Source: Stutzerimonas stutzeri
GTDB lineage: Bacteria; Pseudomonadota; Gammaproteobacteria; Pseudomonadales; Pseudomonadaceae
DNA length: 64,000 nt
Reading direction: 5' to 3'
Assembly (NCBI GenBank): GCA_019056435.1
Contig: CP077641.1
Span: 744,001 to 808,000 of the forward strand
The notes beneath the pieces are model-generated. The model was not told the DNA's origin, searched no databases, and was given only the letters and a program-made list of their open reading frames with translations. Position 1 is the first letter of the stretch; the number at the start of each line of letters is the position of its first letter. Shown here piece by piece: positions 49,051-61,309 of this stretch. A program made the position numbers and the translations under genes.

Positions 49051-50253
49051 ATGAAGCGTCTGGCAATTGCAACGGCAGTACTGAGCACCGCAACGGTCAT
49101 GCCCGCCTGGGCGGAGATTTCCGACGGCAAGGTGAAGATCGGCATCCTCAACGACCAGTCCGGCGTCTACGCGGACTTCGGCGGCAAGTGGTCCTTCGAG
49201 GCAGCGAAGATGGCCGCCGAGGACTTCGGCGGCAAGGTGCAGGGCGCGCCCATCGAAATCGTCACGGCCGACCATCAGAACAAACCGGACATCGCCTCCA
49301 ACATCGCGCGGCAGTGGTACGACCGTGAGCAGGTCGACTCGATCATGGAGCTGACCACGTCCTCCGTGGCGCTGGCCGTGCAGGGCATTTCGAAGGACAA
49401 GAAGAAGATCGATCTGGTCACCGGGGCCGCCACAGTGGAGCTGACCGGCAAACAGTGTTCGCCCTACGGCTTTCATTGGGCCTACGACACCCATGCGCTG
49501 GCCGTCGGCACCGGCGGCGCGCTGGTGTCCCAGGGTGGCGACAGCTGGTACTTCCTAACCGCCGACTACGCCTTCGGCTATTCGCTGGAAGAGCAGACCA
49601 GCGAGTTCGTCAAGGCCAAGGGCGGCGAGATCAAGGGCTCGGTGCGCCACCCGCTGGCGACCAATGACTACTCATCCTTTCTGCTTCAGGCGCAGTCCTC
49701 CGGCGCGGAGGTCATCGGCCTCGCCAATGCCGGGCTGGACACCGCCAATGCCATCAAGCAGGCCGCGGAGTTCGGCATCGTCGCCAGTGGCCAGCGCCTG
49801 GCCGCGCTGCTGTTCACCCTGTCGGAAGTCCACGGGCTGGGCCTGGACGCGGCGCAGGGCCTGACACTGACCGAAAGCTACTACTGGGACCGCGACGACA
49901 AGTCCCGCGAGTTCGCCAAGCGCTTCTTCGAGCGCACCGGGCGGATGCCTAACATGGTCCACGCCGGCACCTATTCCGGCGTGATGCAGTACCTCAAGGC
50001 GATCGACAAGGTCGGCACCGACGAAACCGAAGCGGTGGCCAAGGCCATGCACGAAATGCCGGTGGACGACATGTTCGCGCGTAACGCCAAGGTCGGTGCC
50101 AACGGCCGCCTGATCAGTGACGTGTACCTGATGGAAGTGAAGAAGCCGGACGAGAGCAAGGAGCCCTGGGACTACTACAAGGTGCTCGCCACCGTGCCCG
50201 GCGACGAGGCGTACATCGACCCGGCCGAAAGCGGCTGCGACCTGGTGAAGTGA
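49051..50253 (+). CDS. livK: Liv-type ABC transporter periplasmic binding protein
   Basis: The 400-residue protein has a signal peptide (LAIATAVLSTATVMPAWA) and a type I periplasmic binding fold of the branched-chain amino acid / amide family: VKIGILNDQSGVYADFGGKWSFEAAKMA, LTGKQCSPYGFHWAYDTHA and YWDRDDKSREFAKRF. It is longer than E. coli LivK and closer to binding proteins for urea, amides or aromatic compounds, so the ligand is uncertain and the symbol is generic. GGAG precedes the ATG. First gene of a five-gene operon. Confidence 0.85.
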   Translation: MKRLAIATAVLSTATVMPAWAEISDGKVKIGILNDQSGVYADFGGKWSFEAAKMAAEDFGGKVQGAPIEIVTADHQNKPDIASNIARQWYDREQVDSIMELTTSSVALAVQGISKDKKKIDLVTGAATVELTGKQCSPYGFHWAYDTHALAVGTGGALVSQGGDSWYFLTADYAFGYSLEEQTSEFVKAKGGEIKGSVRHPLATNDYSSFLLQAQSSGAEVIGLANAGLDTANAIKQAAEFGIVASGQRLAALLFTLSEVHGLGLDAAQGLTLTESYYWDRDDKSREFAKRFFERTGRMPNMVHAGTYSGVMQYLKAIDKVGTDETEAVAKAMHEMPVDDMFARNAKVGANGRLISDVYLMEVKKPDESKEPWDYYKVLATVPGDEAYIDPAESGCDLVK

Positions 50254-50258
50254 GCGTG

Positions 50259-51047
50259 ATGACGCCCAATGGCGATAACGCAGCCGTAACCGAAGCACCT
50301 CGCGTGGTGCTGTCGGCGCGCGGCCTGCGGCGCGATTTCAAGGGCTTCGTCGCGGTGAACGACGTCGACCTGGACGTCCATCATGCCCGCGTCCATGCGC
50401 TGATCGGCCCCAACGGCGCGGGCAAGACCACCGTGTTCAACCTGCTGACCAAGTTCCTGCAGCCCTCAGCGGGCGCCATCACCCTGCTCGGTGAGGACAT
50501 CACCCGTACCGACCCGGCCCGGGTGGCCCGCATGGGCCTGGTGCGCTCGTTCCAGATTTCCGCGGTCTTTCCCCACCTGACGGTGCTGGAAAACGTTCGT
50601 GTGGCCCTGCAACGTCCAGGCGGGCTGGCGACGCAGTTCTGGCTGCCGCTACGCTCGCTCGACCGGCTCAACGAGCGGGCCATGGCGCTGATCGAGTCGG
50701 TTGGCCTGCAGGATGCCTGCGACAGCCCGGCGGCGGACCTGTCCTACGGGCGCAAGCGCGTGCTGGAAATCGCCACCACCCTGGCGCTCGAGCCCCGGGT
50801 GCTGCTGCTCGACGAGCCCATGGCGGGCATGGGCCACGAGGATGTGCACATCGTCTCGGAGATCATCCGCGAGGTGGCTCGTGAGCGCGCCGTGTTGATG
50901 GTCGAACACAATCTGAAGGTGGTCGCCGACCTCTGCGATCAGGTCACCGTGTTGCAACGCGGCGAGATCCTCACCTCCGGCGACTACCGCAGCGTCAGCC
51001 AGGACGCTCGCGTCCGCGAAGCCTACATGGGGACCGACGATGACTGA
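50259..51047 (+). CDS. livG: Liv-type ABC transporter ATPase LivG
   Basis: The 262-residue ATPase has Walker A GPNGAGKTT, the Q-loop FQISAVFPHLTVLENV, signature LSYGRKRVLEIA and Walker B VLLLDEPMAGM, plus the H-loop in MVEHNLKVVADLCD. The signature LSYG is typical of LivG, in contrast to LSGG of LivF. The ATG at 50259 is chosen; GTG at 50250 or 50256 could also serve. It overlaps livF by 8 bases. Confidence 0.92.
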   Translation: MTPNGDNAAVTEAPRVVLSARGLRRDFKGFVAVNDVDLDVHHARVHALIGPNGAGKTTVFNLLTKFLQPSAGAITLLGEDITRTDPARVARMGLVRSFQISAVFPHLTVLENVRVALQRPGGLATQFWLPLRSLDRLNERAMALIESVGLQDACDSPAADLSYGRKRVLEIATTLALEPRVLLLDEPMAGMGHEDVHIVSEIIREVARERAVLMVEHNLKVVADLCDQVTVLQRGEILTSGDYRSVSQDARVREAYMGTDDD

Positions 51048-51750
51048 CGCGAGCCCGCTGCTGCACGTGCGCGAACTCAATGCCTGGTATGGCGAAAGCC
51101 ATGCGCTGCACGGCATCGATCTGGACGTGCACCAGGGCGAAACCGTTACCCTGCTCGGCCGCAACGGTGTCGGCAAGACCACCGCCCTGCGTTCGATCAT
51201 GGGCATCATCCGCAAGCGCAGCGGCATCATCCGGTTCGATGGTCGCGACATGATGCGTGTGCCGCTGCACCGCACCGCGCATACCGGCATGGGTTTCGTG
51301 CCGGAAGAGCGCGGCATCTTCGCCACCCTGACGGTGGACGAGAACCTCAATCTGCCGCCGATCATCGCCAAGGGCGGCATGACCACCGACGAGATATACG
51401 AGCTGTTCCCCAATCTGAAGGAGCGGCGAAACAGCGCCGGCACCAAGCTCTCCGGCGGCGAACAGCAGATGCTGGCGATCGCCCGCATCCTGCGCACCGG
51501 CGCGAAGCTGCTGTTGCTGGACGAGCCCACCGAAGGCCTGGCGCCGGTGATCGTCCAGCGTATCGGCGATGTCCTGCTGACCCTCAAGCAACGCGGCATG
51601 ACCATCCTGCTGGTGGAGCAGAACTTCCGCTTCGCGAGCAAGGTCGCCGACCGCTTCTACCTCGTCGACCATGGGCAGATCGTCGACAGCTTCCGTGTCG
51701 AGGAGCTGCCCGAGCGCATGGCGATACTCAACGAAACCCTGGGGGTCTGA
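51040..51750 (+). CDS. livF: Liv-type ABC transporter ATPase LivF
   Basis: The 236-residue ATPase has Walker A GRNGVGKTT, MGFVPEERGIFATLTVDENL, signature LSGGEQQMLAIARIL and Walker B LLLLDEPTEGLAPVIV, as in LivF. It forms the ATPase heterodimer with LivG. Its stop and the next start share one base (TGATG). Confidence 0.93.
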   Translation: MTDASPLLHVRELNAWYGESHALHGIDLDVHQGETVTLLGRNGVGKTTALRSIMGIIRKRSGIIRFDGRDMMRVPLHRTAHTGMGFVPEERGIFATLTVDENLNLPPIIAKGGMTTDEIYELFPNLKERRNSAGTKLSGGEQQMLAIARILRTGAKLLLLDEPTEGLAPVIVQRIGDVLLTLKQRGMTILLVEQNFRFASKVADRFYLVDHGQIVDSFRVEELPERMAILNETLGV

Positions 51751-52637
51751 TGACGGAGATCTTCGGCGTACCCATCCAGGCCTTTCTCGGGCAACTGCTG
51801 ATCGGCCTGATCAACGGCTCCTTCTACGCCATGCTCAGCCTTGGGCTGGCGATCATCTTCGGCCTGCTGAAGGTGATCAACTTCGCCCACGGCGCCCAGT
51901 ACATGATGGGCGCCTTCGCCGGTTACCTGCTGCTGGCGGTACTCGGCATCGGCTACTGGCCGGCGCTTATCCTCGCACCGCTGATCGTCGGGCTGGCCGG
52001 CGCGGTGGTCGAGCGGCTGGCGCTTTCGCGGCTGTACAACCTCGATCATCTCTACGGGCTGCTGTTCACCTTCGGCCTGGCGCTCGCGCTGGAAGGGGCC
52101 TTCCGCTACTACTACGGCTCCTCCGGCCAGCCATACGCGGTGCCGAACCTGCTCGCCGGGGGCTACAACCTCGGGTTCATGTTCCTGCCCAAGTACCGCG
52201 CCTGGGTGGTGGTGGCGTCGCTGCTGATCTGCCTGGGCACCTGGCTGCTGATCGAGAAGACCAAGCTGGGCGCCTACCTGCGTGCCGCGACCGAGAACCC
52301 AACGCTGGTGCGCACCTTCGGCATCAACGTGCCGCTGTTGCTGACTTTCACCTACGGGCTCGGCGCCGGCCTGGCGGGGCTGGCCGGCATCCTCGCCGCG
52401 CCGATCTACCAGGTCAGCCCGCTGATGGGTTCGAACCTGATCATCGTGGTGTTCGCCGTGGTCGTGGTCGGTGGCATGGGCTCGATCCTCGGCGCCATCA
52501 TCACCGGCTACATGCTCGGCATTCTCGAGGGGCTGACCAAGGTGTTCTATCCCGAGGCGTCCAATATCGTGATTTTCGTGATCATGGCGATCGTGCTGCT
52601 GGTGCGGCCGGCGGGCCTTATGGGAAGGGATGGCTGA
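51750..52637 (+). CDS. livH: Liv-type ABC transporter permease LivH
   Basis: The 295-residue inner-membrane protein has about eight hydrophobic segments. Signatures include LINGSFYAMLSLGLAIIFGLLKVINFAHG near the N-terminus and VVVVGGMGSILGAIITGYMLGILEG at the C-terminus, both typical of LivH. It pairs with LivM. Its end overlaps the livM start. Confidence 0.94.
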   Translation: MTEIFGVPIQAFLGQLLIGLINGSFYAMLSLGLAIIFGLLKVINFAHGAQYMMGAFAGYLLLAVLGIGYWPALILAPLIVGLAGAVVERLALSRLYNLDHLYGLLFTFGLALALEGAFRYYYGSSGQPYAVPNLLAGGYNLGFMFLPKYRAWVVVASLLICLGTWLLIEKTKLGAYLRAATENPTLVRTFGINVPLLLTFTYGLGAGLAGLAGILAAPIYQVSPLMGSNLIIVVFAVVVVGGMGSILGAIITGYMLGILEGLTKVFYPEASNIVIFVIMAIVLLVRPAGLMGRDG

Positions 52638-53622
52638 CATGCAGCGAGCAACCGTAACCCCGGCAACCGAACGCAAGCGCTGGAACACCGAGACGACGCT
52701 GATCCTCATCGGCATCCTCGCCCTGGTGCTCGCACCGCTGTACTTCTATCCCGTGTTTCTGATGAAGGTGCTGTGCTTCGCGCTCTTCGCCTGCGCCTTC
52801 AACCTGCTGCTGGGCTATACCGGCATCCTCTCCTTCGGCCACGCGGCCTTCTTCGGCGGCGCGGCCTATTTCACCGCCCATGCCGTCAAGGAATGGGGGC
52901 TGACGCCCGAACTGGGCATTCTGGTGGGGATGGTCGGCGCCGCGCTGTTGGGGCTGGTGATCGGCTTCCTGGCGATCCGCCGGCAGGGCATCTACTCGAC
53001 GATGATCACCCTGGCGCTGTCGCAGATGTTCTTCTTTTTCTGCCTGCAGGCCCCCTTCACCCATGGCGAAGACGGCATCCAGGGCATCCCGCGCGGCCAC
53101 CTGTTCGGTCTGATCGACCTGAAGGAGCCGCTGAACATGTATTTCTTCGTGCTGACGGTGTTCCTGCTCGGCATGCTGGCCATCTGGCGGATCATCAATT
53201 CGCCCTACGGCATGATCCTCAAGTCGATCCGCGAGAACGAGAACCGCGCCATCTCACTGGGCTATACGGTGTCGCGCTACAAGCTCGGCGCCTTCGTCAT
53301 GTCGGCGACGCTCGCCGGGCTGGCCGGCGGGCTCAAGGCGTTGGTGTTCCAGTTCGCCACGCTCACCGACGTGAGTTGGCAGATGTCCGGCGAGGTGGTG
53401 CTGATGACATTGCTCGGTGGCATCGGCACGCTGGTCGGGCCGATCTTCGGCGCTGCGCTGGTGACCACCCTGGGCAACTACTTCGCGACGTCCGAGCTGC
53501 CGGTCACGCTGGTCACCGGCATCATCTTCATGATCTGCGTGCTGATCTTCCGCCGCGGCATCGTCGGTGAGTTCTACGCCTCGCGCCTGGGCAGACGCCT
53601 GGCGCGCTCGCGCACCGGTTGA
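52630..53622 (+). CDS. livM: Liv-type ABC transporter permease LivM
   Basis: The 330-residue permease has about nine hydrophobic segments and the LivM signatures NLLLGYTGILSFGHAAFFGGAAYF, SIRENENRAISLGYTVSRYKL and MTLLGGIGTLVGPIFGA. The operon order binding protein - ATPases - permeases differs from the K-H-M-G-F order of E. coli liv and from urtABCDE. An ATG at 52639 is an alternative start. It converges on parA with no gap between the stop codons. Confidence 0.94.
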   Translation: MADMQRATVTPATERKRWNTETTLILIGILALVLAPLYFYPVFLMKVLCFALFACAFNLLLGYTGILSFGHAAFFGGAAYFTAHAVKEWGLTPELGILVGMVGAALLGLVIGFLAIRRQGIYSTMITLALSQMFFFFCLQAPFTHGEDGIQGIPRGHLFGLIDLKEPLNMYFFVLTVFLLGMLAIWRIINSPYGMILKSIRENENRAISLGYTVSRYKLGAFVMSATLAGLAGGLKALVFQFATLTDVSWQMSGEVVLMTLLGGIGTLVGPIFGAALVTTLGNYFATSELPVTLVTGIIFMICVLIFRRGIVGEFYASRLGRRLARSRTG

Positions 53623-54393
53623 TCAGGCGCTCTCCAGGTGCCCGTGCAGTTCGACGAACTGCTGGCTGAGCTTGTGCCTGGGATCGAAATGAATGAGCGG
53701 CGTGCAGGCCTGGTGCGACTCGCGCATGCGCACCGAGCTCATCAGGTGAACCGGCAGCACCGGCAGGCCTTCGGCGATCAGCTCGTCGATCATCTGCTGC
53801 GGCAGCGCCGCGCGCGGCTGGAACTGGTTGACGACGATGCCCTCGACTTCCAAGCCCTCGTTATGGTCTTCCTGCAACTCCTCGATCTCGTCGAGCAGGC
53901 TGTACAGCGCCTGGCGCGAGAAGCTGTCGCAGTCGAAGGGAATCAGGCAGCGGTCGGCGGCGATCAGGGCCGAGACGGTGTAGAAATTCAGCGCCGGCGG
54001 CGTGTCGATGTAGATCCGCTCGTATTCCTCGGACAGGGTCAGCAGCAGCTTTCGCAGCTTGTTGATCTTGTGCTTGGCTTCCAGCTTGGATTGCAGGTCG
54101 GCCAGCTCGGCGGTCGCGCCGATCAGATGCAGGTTGTCGAAGCGTGTCTCGCTGATGGGTGGGCGAGCCTTCTTCCCGCCCGGCCCGCCGGCGAGGATCT
54201 GCTTGAAGTAGTCGGCCATGCCGGTGGGCAGCGCGTCACCGCTGAGGCCGGTGAGGTAATGGCTGGAGTTGGCCTGGGCGTCGAGGTCGATCAGCAAGGT
54301 CCTGTAGCCCTGCGCGGCACTGACCGCGGCCAGATTCGAGGCAATGCTGGACTTGCCGACACCGCCCTTCTGGTTGAACACCACCCTTCGCAT
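53623..54393 (-). CDS. Orphan ParA-family ATPase
   Basis: The 256-residue protein has the deviant Walker A KGGVGKSS (residues 9-16), a second Asp motif LLIDLDAQANSSHYLTGL and IYIDTPPALNFYTVSALIAAD, the Walker B-like element. It resembles ParA/Soj-type ATPases that move cargo on the nucleoid. No ParB-type gene or parS sites are adjacent, so it is not a plasmid partition cassette. Such stand-alone ParA proteins often position a protein complex or chemoreceptor array; the cargo here is unknown. The ATG at 54393 is divergent from the GluR0-like gene. Confidence 0.88.
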   Translation of the reverse strand: MRRVVFNQKGGVGKSSIASNLAAVSAAQGYRTLLIDLDAQANSSHYLTGLSGDALPTGMADYFKQILAGGPGGKKARPPISETRFDNLHLIGATAELADLQSKLEAKHKINKLRKLLLTLSEEYERIYIDTPPALNFYTVSALIAADRCLIPFDCDSFSRQALYSLLDEIEELQEDHNEGLEVEGIVVNQFQPRAALPQQMIDELIAEGLPVLPVHLMSSVRMRESHQACTPLIHFDPRHKLSQQFVELHGHLESA

Positions 54394-54533
54394 GGTTCGT
54401 TCCTCCTGTCTGGTCTGGCTGGAGTCTATACAACGCTTGCGGCAAGGGTATGACTACTTTCGCCGGGTCCCACCGGCACGCCTTGATAGCGCTTTGTTAC
54501 CCTGCGGCAAAAAACAACCCAGGAGCTTGTTCC

Positions 54534-55595
54534 ATGGCCCGGATGCTCATCGGTCTGATATTCAGCCTGCTGTCGTCACCCCTGTTGGCCCAGCCGGCAC
54601 CGGAGGTGCTCAGGGTGGGCATTACCGAGGTGCCGCCCTTCGTGATCCAGGAGCCCGACGGCCGCTGGAGCGGCATCAGCCTGGAACTCTGGCAGCAGGC
54701 CGCCGAGCGCAACGGCTACCGCTACGAACTGCAGCCCCTGCCCTTCGATCAGTTGCTGCCGGGGTTGCAGAACGGGCAGCTGGATATCGCCGTCGGTGCC
54801 CTGACCATGACCGCCGAACGCGAGGCACTGATCGATTTCACCCACCCCTTCTACCGCACCGGGCTGGCCATCGGCGTGCCGGCCCAACCTGACAATGGCT
54901 GGGCGGCCCTGCGGGCGCTCATGTCCTGGCAGTTTCTCAGCCTGATCATCGGGCTGGCGGCGCTGCTGCTCATCGTCGGAACGGTGTTGTGGCTCTTCGA
55001 ACGCCGGCACAACCGGACGCAATTCGGTGACAGCTCGCTTCAAGGCATGGGCAACGGGTTCTGGTGGGCCGCCGTGACCATGACCACCGTCGGCTACGGC
55101 GACAAATCACCGGTGACCTTCGGCGGCCGACTGGTGGCGATCATCTGGATGTTCGCCGCCCTGGTCATGGTGTCGACCTTCACCGCGGCGGTGACCACGA
55201 CCCTTACGGTGGGCAACCTGCAAGGCGGGCTGGAGGGGCCGGACGATCTGCGTCGCGCCCACGTGGCGACCGTCGAGGGCACGGTCAGCGAACGCTACCT
55301 GGACGAACAGCGCATCCGCGCCAGTCGCTATCCCGACCTCAGCCAGGCGATGCGGGCCGTGCAGTCGGGCGAGGCCGAAGCGGTGGTCTACGACCTGCCG
55401 ATCCTGCAGTACCGCAACGGCGAGCTGAACCACGGAGGTCTGCGCGTGCTGCCCGGCACCTTCGAGAATCAGTCGTACGCCTTCGCCGTTCCCAGCCATA
55501 GCCCGCTGCGCGAGCCGGTCAGCCAGGCGATCCTCGAAATCACCACCGGGCCGGCCTGGCAGCAGCTGCTGGAGCGCTACCTCGGCAAGCCCTGA
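54534..55595 (+). CDS. GluR0-like ligand-gated potassium channel
   Basis: The 353-residue protein has a signal peptide (IGLIFSLLSSPLLAQ) and a periplasmic binding domain split in two. S1 (residues 25-130) has LRVGITEVPPFVIQE and MTAEREALIDFTHPFYRTG. A membrane helix (about 142-163), the pore loop MTTVGYGDKSP (TVGYGD at 185-190) and a second helix follow. S2 has YDLPILQYRN and closes the lobe. This is the layout of prokaryotic glutamate receptors, with a K+ selectivity filter. The AERE/DFTHPF block matches the amino-acid carboxylate-binding segment. AGGAG precedes the ATG. Confidence 0.9.
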   Translation: MARMLIGLIFSLLSSPLLAQPAPEVLRVGITEVPPFVIQEPDGRWSGISLELWQQAAERNGYRYELQPLPFDQLLPGLQNGQLDIAVGALTMTAEREALIDFTHPFYRTGLAIGVPAQPDNGWAALRALMSWQFLSLIIGLAALLLIVGTVLWLFERRHNRTQFGDSSLQGMGNGFWWAAVTMTTVGYGDKSPVTFGGRLVAIIWMFAALVMVSTFTAAVTTTLTVGNLQGGLEGPDDLRRAHVATVEGTVSERYLDEQRIRASRYPDLSQAMRAVQSGEAEAVVYDLPILQYRNGELNHGGLRVLPGTFENQSYAFAVPSHSPLREPVSQAILEITTGPAWQQLLERYLGKP

Positions 55596-55603
55596 GGCGA
55601 AGG

Positions 55604-56398
55604 TCAGACCGCGACGGGCGCCTTGATGTGCGGATGGGCCTGGTAGCCGACCAGCTCGAAGTCCTCGAAGCGGAAGGCGAACAGGTCCTTCACGTCCGGG
55701 TTGAGCTTCATGGTCGGGAGCGGCAGTGGCTCACGGGTGAGCTGCAGGTCGGCCTGCTCCAGGTGGTTGGCGTAGAGATGGCAGTCGCCGCCGGTCCAGA
55801 TGAATTCACCCGGTTCGAGGTCGCAGACCTGCGCCACCATCAGCGTCAGCAGCGCGTAGCTGGCGATGTTGAAGGGCACGCCAAGGAAGATGTCGGCCGA
55901 ACGCTGGTAGAGCTGGCAGCTGAGCTTGCCGTCGGCGACGTAGAACTGGAACAGCGCGTGACAGGGCGGCAGCGCCATCTGTTCGACCAGGGCCGGATTC
56001 CAGGCCGAGACGATCAGCCGGCGCGAGTCCGGGTTGCGCTTGATCATGTCCACGAGCTTGGCGATCTGGTCGATGGACTCACCGTTCGGTGCCGGCCAGC
56101 TGCGCCACTGATAGCCATATACAGGCCCGAGCTCGCCGTGCTCGTCGGCCCACTCGTCCCAGATCGAGACGCCGTTTTCCTTCAGGTAACGGATATTGGT
56201 CTCGCCTTTGAGAAACCACAGCAGCTCGTGAATGATCGACTTGAGGTGGCACTTCTTGGTGGTCACCAGCGGGAAGCCGTCGGCCAGGTCGAAGCGCATC
56301 TGGTAGCCGAACACGCTGTAGGTGCCGGTGCCGGTGCGGTCGCTCTTGAAGGTGCCGTGCTCGCGCACGTGGCGCATCAGGTCGAGGTACTGTTTCAT
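55604..56398 (-). CDS. thyA: Thymidylate synthase
   Basis: The 264-residue enzyme matches the E. coli length. It has [28 protein letters not shown], the catalytic Cys in [34 protein letters not shown] and the C-terminal APVAV. It methylates dUMP to dTMP with methylenetetrahydrofolate. It lies downstream of lgt (77-base gap), as in E. coli and P. aeruginosa. Confidence 0.99.
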
Positions 56399-59037: not shown

Positions 59038-61309
59038 CTAGATCGCCGCGGCCGGGTTGACCATGCGATCCAGCCCGAGGTTGCGCAGCGTCAATTGCAT
59101 GGTGGCGTGGATGACCTGCGGGCTGTCCATCTTCATCACCTTGGCCAGCAGCTCGCGGCCGGTGGCCGAGCTGATCTGGCGCAGCATCCATTTCACTTTC
59201 GGCAGGTTGGTGGCGTTCATCGACAGGCTGTCGAAGCCCATCGCCAGCAGCAGAATCGCCGCAGCCGGGTCGCCAGCCATTTCGCCGCAGATGCTGACCG
59301 GCTTGCCCTCGTCATGCGCCTCGCGAACGATGCGCTGCAGGGCCTCGAGCACCGCCGGGTGGAGGTAGTCGTAGAGGTCGGCGACGCGCGGGTTGTTGCG
59401 ATCGACGGCCAGCAGGTACTGGGTGAGGTCGTTGGAGCCGACCGAGATGAAGTCCACCTGGCGCGCCAGCTCTCGCGAGGTACACAGCGGCCGGCACTTC
59501 GATCATCACACCGACCGGCGGCATCTCGACGTCGGTGCCTTCGTCGCGCACCTCGCCCCAGGCCCGGTGGATCAGGTGCAGCGCTTCTTCGAGTTCGCGG
59601 GTGCCGGAAATCATCGGCAGCAGGATGCGCAGATTGTTCAGCCCCGCGCTGGCCTTGAGCATGGCGCGCGTCTGCAGCAGGAAGATCTCGGGATGATCCA
59701 GCGTCACGCGGATGCCGCGCCAACCGAGGAACGGGTTTTCTTCCTTGATGGGAAAGTACGGCAGGCTCTTGTCGCCGCCGATGTCCAGGCTGCGCATGGT
59801 CACCGGCAGCGGATGGAAGGCCTGCAGCTGCTCGCGATAGATCGCCATCTGCTCCTTTTCGCTGGGGAAGCGCTCCTTGATCATGAAGGGCACTTCCGTG
59901 CGGTACAGACCGACGCCCTCGGCGCCACGCTCCTGGGCGCGCACCACATCGGCGAGCAGGCCGGTATTGACCCACAGCGGGATGCGCACGCCATCGGTGG
60001 TCTCGCAGGGCAGCTCGCGCAGCACGTCCAGGCCTTCGGACAGCTGGCGCTCCTGCTCGGCGAGCACCAGGTACTGCTCACGCAGCACCTTGGCCGGGTT
60101 GGTGATGATCTCGCCGCGCGTGCCGTCGATGATCAGTTCGATACCATCGACCTTGGAATAAGGCAGGTCCACGGCGCCCATCACCGTGGGAATGCCCATG
60201 GCGCGGGCGAGGATCGCCACATGCGAGTTGCTCGAGCCAAGTACCGAGACCATACCCACGAGCTTGCCTTCGGGCACCTCGCCGAGCATGGCCGGTGACA
60301 GTTCCTCACTGACGAGAATGGTGTTGTCCGGGTAGGTCAGCGTCTGCTGGCGGGCCTGCTGCAGGTAGCTGAGCAGGCGACGACCGATGTCCTTGACGTC
60401 GGAGGCGCGCTCGCGCAGATAGGCGTCGTCCATCATTTCGAAGCGCGCGACGTGGTCGCCGACGACCTGGCGCAGTGCACCCTGCGCCCACTGGCCGGTG
60501 CGGATGACCTTGGTCACCTCGCCGCCGAGGGCGGAATCGTCGAGCATCATCAGGTATACATCGAACAGCGCACGCTCTTCCTTGCGCATCTGCGTGGCGA
60601 GCTTTTCGGACAGCGCGCGCATGTCGGCACGCACCGCCTCCAGTGCCGACTCGAACAGCGCCAGCTCGGCGGGAATGTCATCGACCGTCTTGTCCGGGAC
60701 CACATCCAGGTCGGCTGGCGGCAACACCACCACAGCCTTGCCGACTGCGGCACCCGGCGCCCCGGGAATGCCGATGAAGCGAGTTTCCTGAATACCCTTG
60801 CCCTGCCGGCCGAGGCCGCGGATCGAGCCGGTCGCTTCGGCATGGGCGATGACGCCGGCAAGCTGCGCGCTCATGGTGACGAGGAAGGCTTCCTCGCCCT
60901 CGTCGAACAGGCGCTGCTCCTTCTGCTGAATGACCAGGACGCCCATGACGCGTCGGTGGTGAATGATCGGCGCCCCGAGGAAGGAGGCATAACGCTCCTC
61001 GCCGGTCTCGGCGAAGTAGCGGTAGCGGGGGTGCTCGGAGGCGTGCTCGAGATTGAGGGGTTCTTCCCGTGTGCCGACCAGGCCGACCAGGCCCTCGTTG
61101 GGCGCCATGCTGACCTTGCCGATGGCCTTCTTGTTGAGGCCTTCGGTGGCCATCAGGACGAAGCGGCCGGTTTCGTGGTCGAGCAGGTAGACAGAGCAGA
61201 CCTGGCTGCCCATGGCTTCCCGAACCCTCAACACGATAATGCCCAGGGCCGACTTCAGGTCCTTGGCGGCGTTGACTTCCTGGACGATCTTGCGCAGCGT
61301 GCCGAGCAT
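59038..61309 (-). CDS. ptsP: PTSNtr enzyme I (PtsP), with apparent frameshift
   Basis: The combined product is about 757 residues. It has a GAF domain (residues 15-150), an enzyme I N-domain with the phosphohistidine motif GSSNSHVAILARAMGIPTVMG, and a PEP-binding TIM barrel with GLYRTEVPFM, MRSLDIGGDKSLPYF and, after the break, SICGEMAGDP with the catalytic Cys. The frame breaks at 59474-59478, consistent with loss of a CG from a CGCGCG run (or a +1). It feeds phosphate from PEP into the nitrogen-related PTS (NPr, PtsN). It follows rppH by 19 bases. Confidence 0.93.

Follow-up and report, generated by a model that had tools for sequence, protein, structure and literature searches.

The window analysed here, a stretch of 64,000 nucleotides of the Stutzerimonas stutzeri genome, encodes on its forward strand a protein in which a signal peptide, a first lobe (S1), a membrane helix (M1), a pore loop reading TTVGYGDKSP, a second helix (M2) and a second lobe (S2) follow one another (Table 1). 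The boundaries that the initial annotation gave for this gene, and with them its strand and length, were right to the base. The ATG at 54534 is preferred over an in-frame ATG upstream, at 54450, because AGGAG stands 8 nt ahead of it. A promoter scan of 54300-55700 gave no sigma-70-like promoter, and a terminator scan around the channel gene returned nothing.

Table 1. Features of the channel gene and its immediate neighbours (window coordinates)
Feature	Coordinates	Strand	Basis or remark
ParA/MinD-like ATPase, divergent neighbour, outside the system	53623..54393	-	Pfam, comparative loci
AGGAG, Shine-Dalgarno-like	54521..54525	+	8 nt before ATG 54534
Putative GluR0-type channel CDS	54534..55595	+	353 aa, TGA stop
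Predicted signal peptide, residues 1-19	54534..54590	+	hydropathy peak; boundary by eye; fast-evolving
S1, residues 22-118 (ligand-binding domain, lobe 1)	54597..54887	+	Pfam, PDB sequence match, model
R96 (S1), expected alpha-carboxylate binder	54819..54821	+	alignments; role according to PMC2950845
M1 helix, residues 132-156, then RRHNR	54927..55001	+	model, hydropathy
Pore helix 168-183 and filter TVGYGD 185-190	55035..55103	+	sequence, model, alignment
TVGYGD filter, residues 185-190	55086..55103	+	
M2 helix, residues 196-228, equivalent of iGluR M3, with STFTAAVTTTLTV	55119..55217	+	model, hydropathy, alignment to plant GLR3.4
S2, residues 231-352 (ligand-binding domain, lobe 2)	55224..55589	+	Pfam, PDB sequence match, model
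D287 (S2), expected alpha-amino binder	55392..55394	+	alignments; role according to PMC2950845
thyA, convergent neighbour, site marker, outside the system	55604..56398	-	named by eye from translation

The best Pfam family of the protein, SBP_bac_3, covers residues 26-352 (E 6e-25) and spans an insert that is recognised by Lig_chan (residues 140-243, E 7e-17; both above their curated cut-offs) and by Ion_trans_2 (PF07885; residues 143-225, E 6e-14, 52.1 bits against a cut-off of 22.5); the binding domain is therefore split by the pore, and the earlier description of a divided amino-acid-binding domain combined with a TVGYGD pore is confirmed. That description had allowed for two to three membrane segments. 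Two stand, as hydropathy (centres 134-152 and 200-218, besides the signal peptide) and the structure model both place them, together with a re-entrant loop; a third does not appear. The M1-pore loop carries three K/R and one D/E and the segment before M1 one of each, a charge bias that would fit an M1-pore loop lying inside.

In an AlphaFold2 model of the monomer (input alignment of 80 rows; mean pLDDT 84.4, pTM 0.62), helices at residues 132-156, 168-183 (the pore helix) and 196-228 are placed between the two lobes; the model is least certain at residues 1-4 and in the M2-S2 linker (225-230). The top PDB sequence match is 2PYY, the ligand core of Nostoc punctiforme GluR0 (E 5e-28), and the second is plant GLR3.4 (E 7e-25), which aligns over residues 71-344, within S1 and on through M1, pore and M2 into S2. 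Every one of the best 50 Foldseek matches is a chain of an AMPA receptor, with E-values between 1e-23 and 9e-22 and TM-scores, normalised by query length, of 0.51-0.67. VIA-align ranks the glutamate-bound GluR0 core 1II5 first (Z 27.3, 217 residues, 2.2 A), in a tie with glutamine-binding proteins (Z 27.3-26.5) and 2PYY (Z 27.2); since glutamine-binding proteins score as well as 1II5, the fold marks a wider superfamily and not the ligand. For the comparison with GluR0 we used the 2PYY alignment and, by eye, the GluR0 segments printed in PMC2950845. Pfam, the PDB sequence search, the fold search and the conserved residues described below all back the GluR0-type architecture originally proposed.

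According to Ger et al. 2010 (PMC2950845), an Arg in S1 and an Asp in S2 are conserved throughout Groups 1 and 2 of the prokaryotic receptors, the former binding the alpha-carboxylate of the ligand and the latter its alpha-amino group. The corresponding R96 and D287 are each found in 36/36 rows of alignment A1, which represents 35 of the 36 loci L007-L042 (L029, a partial match, was dropped, and three further family-sample matches have no locus), and in 80/80 rows of alignment A2, which represents 79 of the 80 loci from named genomes (L104 was dropped). TVGYGD is present in 33 of the 36 rows of A1; A2 is unusable for filter conservation because its loci were fished with filter patterns. The T250-V251 pair presumably corresponds to the side-chain carboxylate contacts of AMPA receptors. 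It is aligned with a Ser-Thr pair of the glutamate-bound Nostoc GluR0 (2PYY), and position 251 is occupied in A2 by A (36 rows), T (20), V (11), S (7), I (4) or Y (2), so that residues other than T and S account for 53 of the 80 rows. Because this one position of the side-chain pocket differs from Nostoc GluR0, glutamate is uncertain as the ligand; the protein may bind glutamate or another L-amino acid.

The seven copies from the genus, compared in 21 pairs with a Nei-Gojobori-type script, gave pN/pS ratios of 0.10-0.39 in 21/21 pairs, and the gene is thus under purifying selection where it is present. Mean pN was 0.008 over residues 178-193, around the filter, 0.092 over residues 119-230, 0.105 in S1, 0.178 in S2 and 0.388 in the signal peptide; among the regions compared, constraint is strongest at the filter.

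Within Stutzerimonas, the channel was detected in 7 of 56 genomes (E <= 1e-20), one of them a metagenome-assembled genome (MAG) titled Pseudomonas sp., and the remaining 49 gave no match, which makes the gene dispensable. Relatives were found in at least 28 of 298 genomes sampled from the family, four of them only about 30% identical; the two of these four that were read (L030, G060) both lack a K+ filter. The class sample yielded at least 13 of 369 genomes, the window's own included, with L041 and L042 lacking the filter, and a profile search of sampled Pseudomonadota recovered the architecture in at least 28 of 398 genomes; all of these family, class and phylum counts are lower bounds, at most five or six candidates having been scored per genome. 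Eleven of the 28 Pseudomonadota genomes carry TVGYGD, 16 have no K+ filter, and one (G857) has a broken frame with five stops (L235), which was classed with neither filter type. The non-K+ filter types include TLATQADQ, SGK-type, NGGFEER and KGPFNYY, among others. Across named genomes, at least 588 stretches matched a filter pattern and at least 542 of them encode a relative; the 80 kept for analysis include Pseudomonas, Stutzerimonas, Halopseudomonas, Marinobacter, Oceanimonas, Salinisphaera, Alteromonas, Idiomarina and Thioalkalivibrio, as well as MAGs of Planctomycetota, Verrucomicrobiota, Nitrospinota and others, and span ten phyla by their record titles, of which the MAG assignments may be wrong. 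The initial statement that such channels are rare does not hold in general, and the GluR0-type channel is more widespread in bacteria than it implied, although locally it is sparse, as seen in the genus and in the at least 11 of 398 sampled Pseudomonadota genomes that have a K+ filter. In a quick family tree with many long branches, used for the placement of the window protein and the title-read phyla alone, the protein groups close to the copies from Stutzerimonas and Pseudomonas. In a Piscinibacter MAG (L050) there is a copy with 67% identity to it that falls within the Pseudomonas-type clade, and either transfer or a misbinned contig may account for this.

Relatives occur in 12 of 72,556 plasmid records, at no more than 39.7% identity; a search of 50,697 phage records gave one match, confined to the first binding lobe. 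The plasmid relative with 39.7% identity lies on Rhizobium tumorigenes pRt932 (L216:5001-5987). This protein and those at L162 and L217 (G841), 36-39% identical to the Stutzerimonas protein, have the same architecture and M2 region and keep the equivalents of R96 and D287 and most of the other pore landmarks, but read MTQASTGHR or MTQAGAAQN where the Stutzerimonas protein reads MTTVGYGDK. The filter-less relatives mostly retain both ligand-backbone residues. The same S. stutzeri genome also encodes two other Ion_trans_2 pore proteins, one voltage-gated-like with TTVGFGD (L006:1357-2208, minus strand) and one small with TTLGFGD (L005:1468-1932, minus strand).

All seven carriers in the genus have a single channel gene adjoining thyA, and in them parA is separated from thyA by 1213-1246 bp. 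The stretch around thyA contained parA in 38 of the 47 non-carriers examined and did not in the other nine; the gap between the two genes measures 89-97 bp in 35 of the 38, the outliers being G016 (233 bp), G024 (131 bp) and G052 (2020 bp). In G052, whose ThyA is the most similar of the genus (97%), the gap by eye appears to hold an EamA-type transporter and a LysR regulator (L210, about 1.1-3.1 kb), and the occupation of the channel's site by other genes marks parA-thyA as a variable spot. The site table and a tree of the neighbouring genes cover 54 of the 56 genomes, G021 and G037 having been dropped for fragmentary thyA matches. In this tree, which combines ThyA, Lgt and TSUP from the 54 genomes with four outgroup rows, the seven carriers fall within one starred clade of 19 without being monophyletic (AU p 1.6e-5), and at least five changes are required, the three genes being site-adjoining ones that may themselves recombine. 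Contrary to the tree, the channel copy of G022 is nearer to those of G026 and G031 (88.6%) than to that of G036 (84.6%). The number of changes and this discordance together point to repeated loss, to transfer through recombination at this site, or to a mixture of the two.

Gene neighbourhoods beyond the genus offered no partner. Among the 80 named loci, the channel follows thyA in the same orientation at 12 of Pseudomonas type and is convergent with it at three of Stutzerimonas type, while 65 have none of six queried neighbours within their flanks. Clustering of the ORFs around these relatives, which missed some genes (the channel's own cluster was recovered at 72 of the 80 loci), gave as its largest non-channel cluster an NRDE-type gene of the thyA-lgt region, named by eye, at 14 of 80 loci; no recurring operon emerged, none of the 25 largest clusters extending beyond Pseudomonas-type, Marinobacter or Halopseudomonas-type loci. 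With no recurring neighbour, gene context is silent on function. The ParA/MinD-like ATPase of the window is an orphan that adjoins a branched-chain-type ABC cassette. We considered the cassette and ParA as partners of the channel and rejected both, since each occurs in genomes without the channel, and since ParA is found at three and LivM at one of the 80 named loci. Further along the window, at 59038-61309 on the minus strand, ptsP (named by eye) apparently lies in two frames: the frame at 59312-61309 ends in an unlike tail, and a PtsP-like C-terminus is found in another frame at 59038-59457, as a frameshift or a sequencing error might produce.

GluR0-type channels are distant cousins of the glutamate receptors of the brain, and the type has long been known. 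We propose that the protein is a ligand-gated K+ channel of this type in the plasma membrane, a reading to which sequence, model and analogy lead us to assign a probability of roughly 0.78. Judged by its sequence it is a proteobacterial member of an already known class, Group 1 of Ger et al., which PMC2950845 defines by a K+-type filter: it has a split domain of the glutamate-binding type, the two transmembrane segments flanking a P-loop and the K+-type filter of that group, whereas the P region of Group 2 lacks such a filter. The same text listed 12 Group 1 members in 2010, by accession and without organisms, one of them functionally characterised. Like GluR0 of Synechocystis (Slr1257), the Stutzerimonas protein has the order S1-M1-P-M2-S2 and a K+ filter, with neither an amino-terminal domain nor an M4, and it shares the S1 Arg, the S2 Asp and the fold of the ligand-binding domain (Z 27) with both Slr1257 and Nostoc 2PYY, although identity to these ligand-binding domains from another phylum is just 27-30%. 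The fold of the ligand-binding domain plus pore, the M3-like segment and the M3-S2 linker are common to AMPA receptors and GLR3.4; unlike the animal and plant receptors, it has no amino-terminal domain, no M4 and a K+-type filter. The pore module and filter resemble those of KcsA-type two-helix K+ channels, from which it would differ in its opposite membrane orientation and differs in its external binding domain.

If the protein works as GluR0 does, four subunits would assemble into a channel with the N and C termini in the periplasm and the pore inverted relative to KcsA, a topology with which the predicted signal peptide and the charge bias would agree. A periplasmic L-amino acid, its backbone gripped by R96 and D287, would close the clamshell, and lobe closure would pull the M2 ends apart and open the pore. 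K+ would then flow down its gradient, inward at a jump of K+ outside and outward otherwise; this would bring the membrane potential closer to the K+ equilibrium and cushion abrupt changes in cell volume. According to PMC13099474, Synechocystis GluR0 rescues the K+-uptake-deficient E. coli strain LB2003, and PhoA fusions place its termini outside, with some sites not significant; the Synechocystis mutant grows better on agar with 250 mM KCl, with no difference in liquid, and shrinks faster 70-150 ms after KCl upshock, while 100 uM glutamate slows the first phase of shrinkage and speeds up the second. PMC6385376 describes a viral K+ pore that is put under the control of the ligand domain of an iGluR, which supports such a modular mechanism. 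By analogy with Synechocystis GluR0, buffering of sudden K+ or osmotic change would be the most economical guess for the role of the protein. The role of such channels in proteobacteria had been called unknown, and this stands in part: our literature search of open-licence papers found no experimental work on GluR0-type channels from proteobacteria, but the class itself is described (PMC2950845) and a role in KCl upshock is reported for the Synechocystis protein (PMC13099474).

The same Synechocystis data would also fit a K+ leak or osmotic channel that works largely without a ligand, uses its binding domain for assembly and carries K+ at salt shock. The rescue of E. coli by GluR0 took place in a medium without listed glutamate and failed when the soluble domains were removed or two dimer residues were changed, and the phenotype was specific to KCl, all according to PMC13099474; many carriers, moreover, are marine or salt-loving by genus name alone (Marinobacter, Halopseudomonas, Salinisphaera, Idiomarina). 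Against this, among 22 filter-less rows (L235 excluded) the R is kept in 22 and the D in 20, and that these residues persist in proteins without the K+ filter argues that the ligand site has been retained; we consider a channel of this kind distinctly unlikely. Decay into a non-conducting sensor might be suspected from the patchy presence of the gene, the minimum of five changes across the 54 genomes of the genus tree pointing to frequent loss or gain, yet the frame and the filter are intact and pN/pS is well below 1 in 21/21 pairs, so that this seems extremely improbable.

That the protein is merely the membrane-anchored solute-binding protein of an amino acid ABC transporter is suggested by its best Pfam family, by the usual automatic label of its plasmid-borne relatives ('transporter substrate-binding domain-containing protein') and by the ABC cassette nearby (49051-53622). 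A binding protein of that sort would be soluble or lipid-anchored and poreless, whereas here M1-P-M2, two helices with a strongly constrained K+ filter, is inserted; the cassette, moreover, owns a Peripla_BP_6 binding protein of a different family, and the single occurrence of its LivM-like gene at the 80 related loci refers to flanks of up to 5 kb. We regard this explanation as very improbable and retain the ligand-gated K+ channel as the preferred reading.

A bolder picture, which we offer as a conjecture and think rather unlikely as a whole, is that the channel, with some amino acid other than glutamate as its ligand, might give Gammaproteobacteria a rapid electrical signal of amino acids that they or neighbouring cells release when osmotically or salt-stressed, and that the K+ filter might have been lost within Pseudomonadota, replaying the step from GluR0 to the non-K+-selective receptors of animals. 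The most useful by-products of this analysis are the site in Stutzerimonas at which a single gene comes and goes, and the relatives that lack the filter. Stutzerimonas offers a clean natural experiment, in which closely related culturable bacteria either have or lack one gene at a constant position, and the filter-less relatives with 36-39% identity make the change from K+-selective to non-selective pores in iGluR evolution testable in small bacterial proteins.
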